NCBI GenBank assembly: GCA_016235555.1
Contig: JACRKC010000129.1
Span: 1 to 64,000 of the forward strand
Direction: 5' to 3'
Length of the DNA stretch: 64,000 nucleotides
DNA from: Verrucomicrobiota bacterium
GTDB taxonomy: Bacteria; Verrucomicrobiota; Verrucomicrobiia; Opitutales; Opitutaceae
Below the pieces are notes generated by a model, which saw nothing but the letters and a program-made list of their open reading frames with translations, ran no database searches and was not told where the DNA came from. This document shows, in pieces, positions 12,747 through 62,262 of the stretch (within the stretch, counting starts at the first letter, position 1; each line of letters opens with the position of its first letter). A program made the translations under genes and the position numbers.

Positions 12747-13128
12747 GCGCGTCGTGGCTGAGGCGTCCCGCCTCAGTGGGAATCGTGCATTTGAATGTGG
12801 TTTCGCTGGCGAAAAGATCGGATCGAGGTGGAGCGCGTTGACCCCCAACGCGCTTTTGGTGGGAGGGGCTTTACGCCCCGACGAGTCGCGGGGTAAACCG
12901 CTCCCACCTTCACACCAGCGCGTTGAGGGCAACGCGCTCCACCCCGACTGCAATGTTCTGCCTCAGAGGGCGTCGAAAAAACCTCGTGATCGCGCGGTCC
13001 TGTAGCGGAACGCGTGAGCGTTTCGCTCGAAGCGGCGAAAGCCTCACGGCTTCCGCTACCCTGCTGGGCGACCTTTTTCGACGCCTTCTCAGTTGAGAAA
13101 AACACGAGACGGGACGCCTCGTCCACGA
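12747..13128. repeat. Nested palindromic repeat cluster (families K, L, D, C)
   Basis: The 490-bp gap between the hypothetical protein and pcm holds no gene but several palindromes. Family K (CGTCGTGGCTGAGGCGTCCC) appears at 12751-12776 and again, inverted, at 13103-13128. Between them lie family L (12827-12945) with family D nested inside it (12858-12908), and then a palindrome with arms near GGCGTCGAAAAA (12961-13092) whose centre is family C (13002-13059). Such nesting means that repeats have been inserted into older repeats. Confidence 0.8.
13002..13059. repeat. Palindromic repeat, family C, intergenic copy
   Basis: A 58-bp inverted repeat, GTAGCGGAACGCGTGAGCG…CGGCTTCCGCTAC. Read on the other strand, both arms (26 and 25 bases) are identical to the copy found in frame inside the antiporter-like gene at 56077-56132; only the loop differs (7 against 5 bases). 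A longer relative is at 40903-40972 and one arm is in nuoC. Confidence 0.9.
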
Positions 13129-38016: not shown

Positions 38017-38158
38017 GGGGTATGACTCAAACTGAGGTCAATTCCGAAGGCCTTGGCTGTAGCGGCGGTCTATGACCGCCGACGCACCGCCAGCCGTGCT
38101 TCGACGGCGGTCATAGACCGCCGCTACAAATCGCCGGCCTCGGTTTGAGTTACACCCC
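38017..38158. repeat. MITE-like palindrome, family A, copy 2
   Basis: A 142-bp copy: left end GGGGTATGACTCAAACTGAG, inner palindrome TAGCGGCGGTCTATGACCGC and its mirror, right end CGGTTTGAGTTACACCCC. A degenerate fragment resembling the left end lies just before it at 37964-37985. The gap 37903-38281 holds no gene. Confidence 0.88.
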
Positions 38159-39196: not shown

Positions 39197-39230
39197 AACG
39201 CACCCCGTTCCCTCAACGTCCCCTTATCGT

Positions 39231-39324
39231 GTCATTCTGAGCGCAGCGAAGAATCCAGTTGGATTCGCACCCTGCATCTGGCCCGCGCCTCTCCTCTTGG
39301 ATTCTTCGCTGCGCTCAGAATGAC
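39231..39324. repeat. Palindromic repeat, family J
   Basis: Left arm GTCATTCTGAGCGCAGCGAA GAATCCA and mirrored right arm TTCTTCGCTGCGCTCAGAAT GAC, about 40 bp apart. This motif is a widespread bacterial intergenic repeat. It separates the isomerase-like and oxidoreductase genes, so the two may not share one simple transcript. Confidence 0.88.
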
Positions 39325-39354
39325 AAATCAGAAACTGATTTCTCCTCACTCACC

Positions 39355-40680: not shown

Positions 40681-41014
40681 GGTGGGCGGGCCCGTCCCCG
40701 TGCCCGCCTTCGCCCCTCGTCGTGGACGAGGCGTCCCGCCTCGTGATTGATCGAACCCGTGAAAGACCCGGACGCCGACCGAGCGATGCTCGACAAGTCG
40801 CTCGGTCAGCCGATCCGTCCGTTACTGCGAATCGGTTTTCACCATCCCTGCTTTCATCAGACTGTGTGAAAACCCGGCGGCATTCGTTCAGCCGCGCGAA
40901 GCGTAGCGGAAACCGTGAGGTTTTCGTGGGATTTGGCCCGCGTTCGGGCGAAAAGCTCACGCTTTCCGCTACAACCGCCATGTTTTCACACAGTCTGTCA
41001 CGAGCAGGGCTACG
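40681..41014. repeat. Intergenic cluster of palindromes (families E, K, C and an enclosing repeat)
   Basis: There is no gene in this gap. It holds an E-type arm (40680), a K-type hairpin (GACGAGGCGTCCCGCCTCGTG, near 40726), and a composite at 40859-40998. The composite has outer arms CAGACTGTGTGAAAAC and the mirrored GTTTTCACACAGTCTGT enclosing a 70-bp family C palindrome (40903-40972). Confidence 0.78.
40903..40972. repeat. Palindromic repeat, family C, long copy nested in another repeat
   Basis: GTAGCGGAAACCGTGAGGTT…AGCTCACGCTTTCCGCTAC: the family C arms with a longer centre, placed between the arms of a different inverted repeat (40859-40998). Confidence 0.82.
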
Positions 41015-46583: not shown

Positions 46584-46726
46584 GGGGTGTGACTCAAACT
46601 GAGGTCAGTAGTTTGTAGCGGCGGTCTATGACCGCCGAACGAATTCCATTGGCGCAACGACGGCGGTCATAGACCGCCGCTACGGCCAACGCATTCGAGA
46701 ACTGACCTCAGTTTGAGTTACACCCC
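46584..46726. repeat. MITE-like palindrome, family A, copy 3
   Basis: A 143-bp copy: left end GGGGTGTGACTCAAACTGAG GTCAGT, inner palindrome TAGCGGCGGTCTATGACCGC and its mirror, right end ACTGACCTCAGTTTGAGTTA CACCCC. Its inner parts relative to copies 1 and 2 are rearranged: the sequence CGAA(C/T)GC flank seen on the left of copy 1 lies on the right here, as if the element had inserted in the opposite orientation. Confidence 0.88.
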
Positions 46727-55913: not shown

Positions 55914-57464
55914 TCATTTTACGACGGCCTCGGCGAAGCGCATGAAGAAGTCCGGGTAGAAGCCCAGCACCACGGAGATGGCGGCGGTGAGGCAGAGCGG
56001 GATGACCATGGCGAGCGGGGCTTCGCCTTCGTGGTGCTCGGCGGCGCCGTGTCCGCCGTGGTCGTGATGTTGCTCCGTAGCGGAAGCCGTGAGGCTTTCG
56101 CCACCATGCGAAACGCTCACGCGTTCCGCTACAGACGGCTGGCCGAAGAAGGCTTGGTAGATGACCGGCACGAAGTAGGCCGCGTTGAGCAGCGTGCTGG
56201 CGACCAACACGACGAGGATGCCGATGGCACCGGCGTCGAGCGCGCCGACGAGCAGGTAGAGTTTTGAGATGAATCCCGCGACCGGCGGCGCGCCGATCAT
56301 GCTAAGCGAGGCGACGGCGAAGGCGCCGAAGGTCCACGGCATCTTGCGACCGAGGCCGCCCATCTCGGAGATGTTCTTCTTGTGGGTCGCGACGTAGATC
56401 GCGCCGGCGCAGAAGAACAACGTGATCTTCGAGAACGCGTGGTTGGCGATGTGGACGAGACCGCCCTCGATCGCGGTCGGGCTGAGGAGCGCGACGCCGA
56501 GGATGATGTAGGACAGCTGGCTGACGGTGGAGTAGGCGAGCCGCGTCTTCAGGTTGTCCTTGCTGAGCGCGATGATCGACGCGGCGAGAATGGTGAACGA
56601 AACGAAATACGCGGTCGGCAGACCGAGGTTGAGACGCGCCATGAGATCGACGCCGAACACGTGGAGCATCACGCGCACCGTCGAAAACACGCCCACCTTT
56701 ACGACCGCGACGGCGTGGAGCAGCGCGCTGACAGGCGTCGGCGCCACCATCGCGCCCGGCAGCCAGTGGTGCAACGGCATCACGCCGTTCTTCGCGAAGC
56801 CGAGGATGCACGCGGCGTAGAGGCCGACGATGACGGCGTTGTGCGCGGTGGCCGGGAGGATGCCGGTGTGGACGTTGGTCGCGAAGTCGAGCGTGCCCGA
56901 GAGCACGTAGATCAGCACCATCGCGGGGAGGATGAGACCCTTGGCCGTCGTGGTGAGATAGGTGATGTATTTCCGCGCGCCCTCGTAGCCTTCTTCGTCC
57001 TGGTGGTGGGCGACGAGCGGGTAGGTCGTCACGCTCACAATCTCGTAGAAGAGGTAGAGCGTGAGGAGATTGTCGGAGAACGCGCAGCCGATGGCGCCGA
57101 AGAGCGCGAGGGCGAAGCAGGTGTTGAAACGCGTCTGCGCGTGCTCGTGCAGCCCGCGCATGTAGCCCGCCGAATAAAACACCGCGAGGATCCAGAGGAA
57201 CGACGCGGCGACGGCGAACATCATCGACAGCGCGTCGGCGCGCAGCGTGAAGCTCAGGCCGGGCAGCAGTTCGAAGAGCGTGTAGCGCAGCGCCCGGCCG
57301 GCCTGCACATCGGGCACGAGCGAGGCGACGATCCCGAACAGCGTGACGGCCGCGAGGAACGAGCACGTTTCGCGGACGTTGGGCCGCTTGCCGGTGGCCA
57401 TGACCAAGCCCGCGCCGACAAGCGGCGCCAGCACGGCGAGGAGGAGGCGGATGTCGGTTTGCAT
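55914..57464 (-). CDS. NuoL/MrpD-like proton or cation transporter subunit (first copy), with in-frame palindrome
   Basis: A 516-residue membrane protein of the NuoL/M/N-MrpD superfamily with about 14 helices. Conserved parts include DNLLTLYLFYEIVSVTTYPL, NGVMPLHHWLPGAMVAPTPV SALLHAVAVVKVGVFSTVRV and NLKTRLAYSTVSQLSYIILG, with channel Glu, Lys and His. It is like the Mrp subunit D branch. Between the second-last and last helices lies a loop containing VAERVSVSHGGESLTASAT, which is exactly the translation of a 56-bp family C palindrome, followed by a His-rich run (EQHHDHGGHG). The loop is probably tolerant, so the protein may still work. It follows nuoK after a 230-bp gap. Confidence 0.87.
   Translation of the reverse strand: MQTDIRLLLAVLAPLVGAGLVMATGKRPNVRETCSFLAAVTLFGIVASLVPDVQAGRALRYTLFELLPGLSFTLRADALSMMFAVAASFLWILAVFYSAGYMRGLHEHAQTRFNTCFALALFGAIGCAFSDNLLTLYLFYEIVSVTTYPLVAHHQDEEGYEGARKYITYLTTTAKGLILPAMVLIYVLSGTLDFATNVHTGILPATAHNAVIVGLYAACILGFAKNGVMPLHHWLPGAMVAPTPVSALLHAVAVVKVGVFSTVRVMLHVFGVDLMARLNLGLPTAYFVSFTILAASIIALSKDNLKTRLAYSTVSQLSYIILGVALLSPTAIEGGLVHIANHAFSKITLFFCAGAIYVATHKKNISEMGGLGRKMPWTFGAFAVASLSMIGAPPVAGFISKLYLLVGALDAGAIGILVVLVASTLLNAAYFVPVIYQAFFGQPSVAERVSVSHGGESLTASATEQHHDHGGHGAAEHHEGEAPLAMVIPLCLTAAISVVLGFYPDFFMRFAEAVVK
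56077..56132. repeat. Family C palindrome inside a coding gene, in frame
   Basis: 56 bp, GTAGCGGAAGCCGTGAGGCT…ACGCGTTCCGCTAC. Both arms equal those of the intergenic copy at 13002-13059 on the opposite strand; loops differ. The reading frame of the antiporter-like gene passes through it without a stop. Confidence 0.92.
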
Positions 57465-60541: not shown

Positions 60542-61684
60542 TCATCGATCGATGTCGGGGATGACGAGATCGAGGGATCCCATCATGGCCAGGGCGTCGG
60601 GCAAAATCATGCCTTTGCTCGCCTCCTCGTAGAGACTCAGGTTGGAGAACGACGGCGCGCGCAGCTTCACGCGATACGGGATTTCCTTCCCGTCGCTCAC
60701 GATGCGCACCATGAAGCGGCCGCGCGCGGCCTCGACGGCGTAGCAGTAGTCGCCAGCCGGCGGCTTGATCACGCGCGGGACTTTCGGCGCCATGAACGGG
60801 CCGGCCGGGATCAGGTCCAGCGCCTGCTCGATGATGGAGAGGCTTTGCTCCATTTCATCCATGCGCACGAGGTAGCGCGCCATGGAGTCGGCCTGCGGGT
60901 AAGTCGGGATCTTGAACTTGAGCTTCGGGTAAACCGAATACGGCTCGACCGTGCGCACGTCGTAGGCGACGCCGGCGCCGCGGATCACCGGGCCGGTCGC
61001 GCCGTAGCGGCGGCACATGTCGGCGCTGATCGGGCCGATGTCGGTGAGGCGCTTGCGGAGGATGATGTTATCGGTGACGAGCTCTCGATACATCGTGAGC
61101 CGAGGCTTCATGTGCGCCACGAAGTCGCGCGTGCCCTTCAGGAACGCGTCGTCGACGTCGTTGTAGAGCCCGCCGAAGCGATAGTAGCAATAGGTCAGCC
61201 GCGCGCCGCAGAGGCCCTCGAGCAGATCGAGGATTTTTTCGCGGTCATCGAAGGCGTAAAGGATCGGGGTGAAGCCGCCGAGGTCGAGGAGCAGCGCGCC
61301 CCACCAGACCATGTGGCTCGAGATGCGGTTGAGTTCGGAGGTGATGACGCGGGCGTATTCCGCGCGCTCGGGGACCTCGATCTTCAGCGCGCGCTCGACG
61401 GCACCCACGTAGGCGTGGGTGTAGTTCATCGCCGAGAGGTAATCGATGCGGCTGGTGTTGGGGAGGAACTTCGCCCACGAGCGGTTCTCGCCCATCTTTT
61501 CGTGCATCCGGTGGATGTAGCCGATGATGGGCTCGGCACGCTGGATCCACTCGCCGTCCATCGTCATGAGCACGCGGAGCACGCCGTGCGCGGCGGGATG
61601 CTGCGGACCGAGGTTGAGCGTGAACGTCTCGTGCGTGCCGTCGCTCGCGTGACCGGAGGTGATCAGGCCTTTTTCTGCGATCAT
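60542..61684 (-). CDS. nuoD: NADH-quinone oxidoreductase subunit D
   Basis: A 380-residue hydrophilic subunit that forms the quinone-binding site with NuoB. It shows TFTLNLGPQHPAAHGVLRVL, IIGYIHRMHEKMGENRSWAK FLPNTSRIDYLSAMNYTHAY, NRISSHMVWWGALLLDLGGF TP, and the C-terminal PSFSNLSLYEEASKGMILPD ALAMMGSLDLVIPDIDR. These are the standard signatures, including the conserved His and Tyr at the quinone pocket. The start overlaps the nuoC stop as ATGA. Confidence 0.97.
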   Translation of the reverse strand: MIAEKGLITSGHASDGTHETFTLNLGPQHPAAHGVLRVLMTMDGEWIQRAEPIIGYIHRMHEKMGENRSWAKFLPNTSRIDYLSAMNYTHAYVGAVERALKIEVPERAEYARVITSELNRISSHMVWWGALLLDLGGFTPILYAFDDREKILDLLEGLCGARLTYCYYRFGGLYNDVDDAFLKGTRDFVAHMKPRLTMYRELVTDNIILRKRLTDIGPISADMCRRYGATGPVIRGAGVAYDVRTVEPYSVYPKLKFKIPTYPQADSMARYLVRMDEMEQSLSIIEQALDLIPAGPFMAPKVPRVIKPPAGDYCYAVEAARGRFMVRIVSDGKEIPYRVKLRAPSFSNLSLYEEASKGMILPDALAMMGSLDLVIPDIDR

Positions 61685-62262
61685 GGCGCGTAGTCCTTCC
61701 GCAGCGGATGGAAGTCCGCGTCCTCCGGCAGGAGGAACGGTTTCATATTGGGGTGGCCGGAAAAACGGATGCCGAAGAAATCGTGCGTCTCGCGCTCGTG
61801 CCAGTTGGCACCGGGAAACACGGGCGAAATCGTCGGCAATTCGGGCGTGGCGCGCGGCACGCGGGTGCGCACGACGACGCGGAGCGAAGCGGTCGGGTGG
61901 AAGTAGTCGTAGACGACCTCCATCTCGTTTTGCGCCATCCAGTCGACGCCGGTGACGGCATCGAGGCCAAAGCCGGCGCGGTCGAGCAACTGCGCGGCGG
62001 CGACGACCTGATCGGGGGCGACGGTGGCGTTGAGATCGTAACCCTTGAGGGCGTGCGCGACGGATTGGACGGGGCTCGGTTTTGGTAGGTCGGGGTTTAC
62101 CCCCGACGTGTCGGGCGTAAAGCCCGACCTACGCCCCGACTCGACCGAGGAAGCGGTTCCGTCGGGGCATAAAGCCCCTCCCACAACTGGCAGCGAAACG
62201 CTGGCGCGTTCCGCTACGAGGGCGGCGAACTGCGCGGTGAGTTGCTCGAGAGTCGGGTTCAC
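61681..62262 (-). CDS. nuoC: NADH-quinone oxidoreductase subunit C, with in-frame repeat mosaic
   Basis: A 193-residue subunit of the hydrophilic arm. It starts at GTG 62262, overlapping the nuoB stop as GTGA. The family core runs from [20 protein letters not shown] to the end, with [25 protein letters not shown] and the signature [20 protein letters not shown]. Residues about 16-59, between the N-terminal helix and the core, come from three palindromic repeats lying in frame (62085-62217): they read as VAERASVS, then [15 protein letters not shown], then [16 protein letters not shown]. The insert adds about 44 residues but the core looks whole. Confidence 0.94.
62085..62217. repeat. Mosaic of three palindromic repeats inside nuoC, in frame
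   Basis: From left: a palindrome (GTAGGTCGGGGTTTACCCCC…GCCCGACCTAC, 62085-62132); a family D unit (GCCCCGAC…GTCGGGGCATAAAGCCCCTC CCAC, 62133-62184); and one arm of family C (GCGAAACGCTGGCGCGTTCC GCTAC, 62193-62217). The nuoC frame crosses all three without a stop. Family D elsewhere is nested in family L at 12858-12908. Confidence 0.85.

Follow-up and report, generated by a model that had tools for sequence, protein, structure and literature searches.

An in-frame GTAG-type REP heterodimer in a NuoL/MrpD-like gene of an Opitutaceae bacterium, and the recurrence of palindromes in loops of two repair-type enzymes

The stretch of DNA analyzed here (referred to as "the window") comprises 64,000 nucleotides of contig JACRKC010000129.1 from a Verrucomicrobiota bacterium of the family Opitutaceae, whose genome spans 8.03 Mb in 140 contigs. 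One of its genes encodes a NuoL/MrpD-like membrane subunit, and this gene contains a short palindromic repeat of a family referred to as family C (Table 1). A preliminary description had reported the repeat as lying in frame in coding DNA, and we find the same: the frame stays open, and the repeat contributes 19 residues that read VAERVSVSHGGESLTASAT and correspond to codons 445-463 of the protein. The element is laid out as a BIME or REPIN: a head-to-head GTAG-REP heterodimer of two inverted 24-nt units, in each of which an unpaired GTAG precedes an 8-bp stem capped by a GTGA loop.

Table 1. Coordinates of the family C features and the host gene in the window.
Feature	Position	Strand
Host gene, NuoL/MrpD-like membrane subunit (PF00361), 516 aa, open frame	55914..57464	-
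GTAG-REP head-to-head heterodimer (family C), phase 0, 19 residues	56077..56132	-
REP half, gcc type (GTAG, 8-bp stem, GTGA loop)	56077..56100	+
REP half, cgc type	56109..56132	-
Family C pair, arms identical to those of 56077..56132, nested in a longer repeat, intergenic	13002..13059	
Intergenic 70-bp pair of an acc and an agc half, within a longer inverted repeat	40903..40972	
Single half of family C with 2 mismatches, in frame within the NuoC-like gene at 61681-62262	62195..62217	-

Both arms of the element match the family pattern (GTAGCGGAANNCGTGAGNNTTTC) without mismatch, and at ≤3 mismatches this pattern occurs seven times in the window, against a mean of 0.02 over 100 shuffles. Each half folds on itself through its 8-bp stem, and the two together form a long hairpin with two 2-nt internal mismatches that come from the unlike cgc and gcc halves (predicted fold: z -6.2 as DNA, -34.8 kcal/mol as RNA). 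The arms (26 and 25 nt) are identical to those of the intergenic pair at 13002-13059 read on the opposite strand while the loops differ, both as first described. Calling the arms perfect holds for this identity between copies, but not within the element, where their mutual complementarity is imperfect.

An AlphaFold2 model of the host protein (35 sequences, mean pLDDT 81.8) gives values below 50 for residues 449-478, between helices 414-440 and 484-502, and predicts that the insert starts as a short helix (445-452); on this model the insert lies between two late membrane helices, in agreement with the earlier placement. The closest relatives of the protein are Opitutaceae and other Verrucomicrobia MAGs. 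The 19 residues had been expected to be absent from most homologues, and they are found in none of the best 80 of 270 relatives and in none of the 11 homologues from the closest whole genomes. Among 57 relatives, no second genome of the same genus was found. Among the same best 80 of 270, the loop measures 13 residues in 58 proteins and ranges from 11 to 48, compared to 40 in the window protein and 21 once the insert is subtracted; given this range, the loop is naturally length-variable, and it is His-rich. A DNA scan of these 80 homologue loci returned a single possible family C half, with 3 mismatches and outside the gene (locus L075).

Genome-wide, the family C half occurs in 123 exact copies, 64 on one strand and 59 on the other, while the reversed control gives 0; two sub-patterns occur in 84 and 74 copies at ≤1 mismatch. 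From 80 stretches around the known places (all but two of them) plus the window, allowing ≤4 mismatches per half, we collected 94 elements, of which 79 are pairs carrying GTAG on the outside and 15 are singles. The pairs comprise a cgc/gcc type (37 pairs, 58 bp commonest), an acc/agc type (34 pairs, mostly 70 bp), and other kinds (8 pairs). All four half types have the GTAG, the 8-bp stem, and a 4-nt loop, and like halves are joined to each other in 0 of the 79 pairs. As judged by eye, most 70-bp pairs and 11 of the 41 pairs of ≤60 bp share flanks, and these pairs therefore sit in longer repeats. The copy at 13002-13059, first described as an intergenic palindrome, is one of the 11 and so is not free-standing. 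By the same inspection, the five copies internal to genes (see below) show neither set of shared flanks. A target-site duplication was sought across the 79 pairs and no consistent one was found, with 55 pairs sharing no base run and the longest run being 4 nt. Counting the source genome each time, 16 of 200 genomes of the same family carry exact family C halves, as do 4 of 387 genomes sampled across the phylum.

Two arrangements of family C were observed besides. The longer inverted repeat around the 70-bp pair in the window (40846-41009) looks MITE-sized, and most other 70-bp copies have its flanks. Elsewhere in the genome, five pairs and a single, with differing spacers, are clustered at L190 2501-3574 (G000:C111:19937-21010), where the last pair lies across a gene end.

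The preliminary description had proposed counting family C across the genome, together with its share inside genes and the frames used. According to gene calls from a home-made gene finder, 82 of the 94 elements are intergenic, 4 lie across a gene end, and 8 fall within predicted genes (7 pairs and 1 single), compared to about 81 of 94 expected in genes at random if the coding share of the window (86%) is used, or about 78 with that of all DNA examined (83%). Two of the seven in-gene pairs lie less than 30 codons from a predicted start that is itself uncertain. The other five are internal, in genes encoding the NuoL/MrpD-like protein, an OGG-like DNA glycosylase, a sulfatase, a U32 peptidase, and an EndoQ-UvrD helicase. 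Left out of these five are the second pair of L170 and the pair of L172 (both within 30 codons of the predicted start), the single half at 62195, and the elements of L155, L183, L195 and one L190 pair, which overlap gene ends. The helicase gene (L186 431-3634) is predicted to encode an EndoQ-like domain fused to a UvrD/PcrA-like helicase in one protein.

All five internal pairs are read in phase 0, as VAERVSVS-x-ESLTASA(T/P), VAEAVRLS-x-ETLTRSAT, or VAETVRFS-x-ETLTRSAT. On either strand, TAG and TGA are confined to one phase of the element and the other two phases are open. A rule of "always phase 0" was rejected, with the pair near a gene start in L172 and two cases from other genomes (L391 and L400) being in phase 1; the in-gene cases seen have only in common that none is read in the phase that bears the stops. 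All five internal pairs also have lengths of 2 mod 3, whereas among intergenic pairs no longer than 60 bp this holds for 4 of 31 (p 3e-4; five pairs at gene starts or ends excluded). The 31 are not independent, since they include 20 copies of 58 bp, many of which derive from a single larger repeat. The recent spread or active copying proposed in the preliminary description may apply: the arms are intact, but spacers vary among the in-gene copies and no transposase partner was found at the loci checked (see below). The 2 mod 3 lengths are most simply read as insertion of the element together with one further base.

Twenty stretches from five other genomes with family C yielded 38 elements, of which 30 are intergenic, 2 lie across a gene end, and 6 fall within predicted genes, although among these six the L390 gene is weakly supported and one half in L401 is doubtful (4 mismatches). 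They include a 56-bp pair in phase 0 (L405), an in-frame 58-bp pair in phase 1 that runs contrary to the length rule (L391), and two direct halves in phase 1 (L400).

For the four other internal hosts, the family C residues are absent from all homologues compared (8 of 8 for the helicase, 29 of 29 for U32, 29 of 29 for OGG, and 17 of 17 for the sulfatase). The helicase insert corresponds to 19 gap columns in the PcrA alignment, directly before the conserved GDxDQxIY stretch, and without these 19 residues the loop has the same length as in 3 of the 8 homologues. In the OGG-like protein, subtracting 19 residues leaves 4, below the 8 of the shortest homologues shown, and in the U32 peptidase the insert brings no clear net gain in length.

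The loops of the OGG-like protein and the helicase also carry palindromes in other genomes. In the helicase loop, one homologue (L242) has an 18-bp inverted repeat with one mismatch and another (L246) a 31-bp perfect one. In the OGG loop, a palindrome starting GGTGGAGCGCGTTG, which occurs twice in the window (11345 and 12917), is present in three homologues from two genera (L302, L305, and L308), and other palindromes are present in L325 and L329. The OGG loop of L405, from another genus (g27), contains the 56-bp family C pair mentioned above. This pair lies six residues further along and has one half of another type, so it is probably an independent insertion. Over up to 94 homologues of the five proteins, perfect inverted repeats of at least 12 nt number 7 in 5,721 nt of loop and 7 in the remaining 169,086 nt (odds ratio 30; p 1e-7, a value that is too strong because two OGG cases share one homologue, the bases are not independent, and some cases are perhaps inherited). 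The seven loop cases are divided between the helicase (2) and OGG (5), with none in the U32, sulfatase, and NuoL/MrpD loops. Within the window, codon shuffling indicates no general excess of perfect inverted repeats of at least 13 nt in genes (0 seen vs. 0.42 expected), a test that misses REP dimers because their arms mismatch.

Another gene in the window carries several such repeats. The NuoC-like gene (61681-62262, minus strand) contains three in-frame REP-type inserts at 62085-62217 within one open frame: the single family C half, a GTGGGAGGGG-type unit at 62161-62184 that has an intergenic copy at 12859, and a second GTAG dimer of the GTAGGTCGGG type at 62085-62132. The linker in which they lie varies among 25 aligned homologues, and one half of the dimer at 62085-62132 is identical to a repeat that stands on either side of two Y1 transposase loci in the same genome (L035 and L040). 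Between genes, the window also contains a 28-bp perfect inverted repeat of another kind at 39230-39325 (TGTCATTCTGAGCGCAGCGAAGAATCCA, 40-nt spacer), and, at 38058-38128 and 46615-46683, two pairs of another GTAGCGG palindrome (GTAGCGGCGGTCTATGACCGCCG), which in contrast to family C join like halves.

The source genome contains ten Y1 transposase loci, five of which have GTAG-hairpin repeats on both sides. Family C was found near none of the ten (in fetched flanks of about 1.5 kb or less), and near none of 30 Y1 loci checked among 47 matches in six other genomes that contain family C.

In-frame GTAG REPs are already known from this family. Di Nocera, De Gregorio and Rocco (2013; PMC3733652) described them with the highest intragenic number in Opitutus terrae, itself an Opitutaceae, so the preliminary statement that no such description was known for this phylum does not hold. 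In that account, over half of the inserts are dimers or groups encoding 20-30 residues, repair genes are frequent targets, loops and linkers are suggested as sites, and heterodimers are suggested to be protected from enzymes that clear long perfect hairpins (PMC3733652). The elements of O. terrae and those described here are both GTAG-tagged short palindromes, often head-to-head dimers, that lie in frame in genes including repair genes, and both belong to Opitutaceae, going by the closest relatives of the window protein; the host genes differ, so far as PMC3733652 names them. The comparison of family C with the 24 published GTAG families covers their described features (PMC3733652). Family C shares with the GTAG superfamily the unpaired GTAG end, a stem of 8 bp (mostly 6-9 bp in the superfamily), many copies, head-to-head unlike dimers (79 pairs among 94 elements), and a mostly intergenic position; the association with a RAYT, seen for other REPs of the same genome, was not found for family C at the 40 Y1 loci checked. 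It likewise resembles the RAYT-mobilized BIMEs and REPINs in its two inverted REPs with a short spacer, in a genome whose Y1 loci are flanked by other REP families, but differs from them in having no Y1 partner at these loci and in having copies in coding DNA too. Rickettsia palindromic elements are also palindromic repeats lying in frame within unrelated genes (PMC10969869; PMC3733652), but they measure about 150 bp (PMC10969869) as opposed to 56 bp here and come from another phylum, and RPE-4 and RPE-6 are of the CGTC type rather than the GTAG type (PMC3733652). We thus rejected a Rickettsia-type element on the basis of tag and length; the in-frame insertion seen in the five internal cases is shared behavior, not membership.

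We consider it very probable that the element at 56077-56132 is a non-autonomous GTAG-type REP dimer that landed in a membrane subunit, in a loop of variable length, and has persisted there because it is nearly harmless. It would have entered in one piece of about 57 bp (56 bp and one base), probably via single-stranded hairpins and a RAYT/TnpA-REP (Y1) transposase acting in trans; such RAYT action on family C is inferred by analogy. Purifying selection would then remove nearly all in-gene copies, sparing copies whose insertion lengthens the gene by a multiple of three bases, whose reading phase is not the TAG/TGA one, and which sit in a tolerant loop. A cellular function is not needed to explain the element. 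In favor of this reading are the copy number, the structure and unlike pairing of the halves, the scarcity of copies in genes, the common length class and phase of the five internal pairs, the absence of the residues from homologues, the length of the helicase loop without its insert, and the GTAG-hairpin repeats around five of the ten Y1 loci. Against it stand the missing Y1 partner at the 40 loci checked, the dependence among the intergenic pairs in the length test, the length of L391 and the phase of L391 and L400, the OGG and U32 loop lengths, the 21 residues left in the NuoL/MrpD-like loop as opposed to 13 in 58 of 80 homologues, and the lack of a consistent target duplication.

Among the alternatives, one that we regard as improbable, though less so than the others, is that two 24-nt halves of eight codons each entered separately around target DNA that is now the spacer, which would keep the frame at any spacer length. 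The differing spacers of the in-gene copies, the 15 singles among the 94 elements, and the OGG loop, where subtracting 16 codons leaves 7 residues and thus comes nearer to the 8 of the shortest homologues, speak for such separate entry; yet the helicase length found in 3 of 8 homologues is restored by a 19-codon and not a 16-codon model, and neither the 2 mod 3 lengths of all five internal pairs nor the unlike halves in 79 of 79 pairs would be explained. It is unlikelier still that the palindrome is functional in place, as a hairpin in the operon mRNA or a useful protein loop. The strong predicted fold and the arms free of mismatch to the family pattern would fit a function, whereas the absence of the insert from the best 80 of 270 homologues, the presence of the same repeat in unrelated genes, and the pLDDT below 50 at 449-478 argue against it.

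Copying from an intergenic element by recombination or gene conversion, rather than by transposition, would account for the arms identical to those at 13002, but we give it little credence: the spacers and flanks differ, the larger repeat of the 13002 copy is missing at 56077, and no flank is shared. A chance match, or a fortuitous likeness of conserved protein sequence to the repeat, was rejected, as the shuffle mean and the homologue comparison above leave it a negligible probability and no points in its support were found.

Compared to what is known of in-frame GTAG REPs in Opitutaceae, the part of our results that goes further is the recurrence of palindromes in the same loops. Tentatively, and with clearly more doubt than confidence, certain loops of conserved Opitutaceae proteins, above all of DNA-repair enzymes, may be recurrent landing pads, where different palindromes in different genera independently give rise to new in-frame segments; GTAG dimers would be suited to this in that their stop codons all fall in a single phase and in that the pairs to survive are those of unlike halves, which form no long perfect hairpin. 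PMC3733652 gives one instance of different REPs near one site, recB of Xanthomonas, and differing sites for the other genes of that kind, which is evidence against a general landing-pad rule.

The five in-gene family C copies, each with homologue controls, are new cases of in-frame insertion, and also new are the palindromes of other genera in the OGG and helicase loops, the three inserts in nuoC, and the lack of a transposase partner at 40 loci. That different palindromes occupy the same loops of the OGG-like protein and the EndoQ-UvrD helicase in different genera makes an old suspicion testable, and raises the question of whether REP insertion is a repeated source of protein loops, with repair genes as favored targets.
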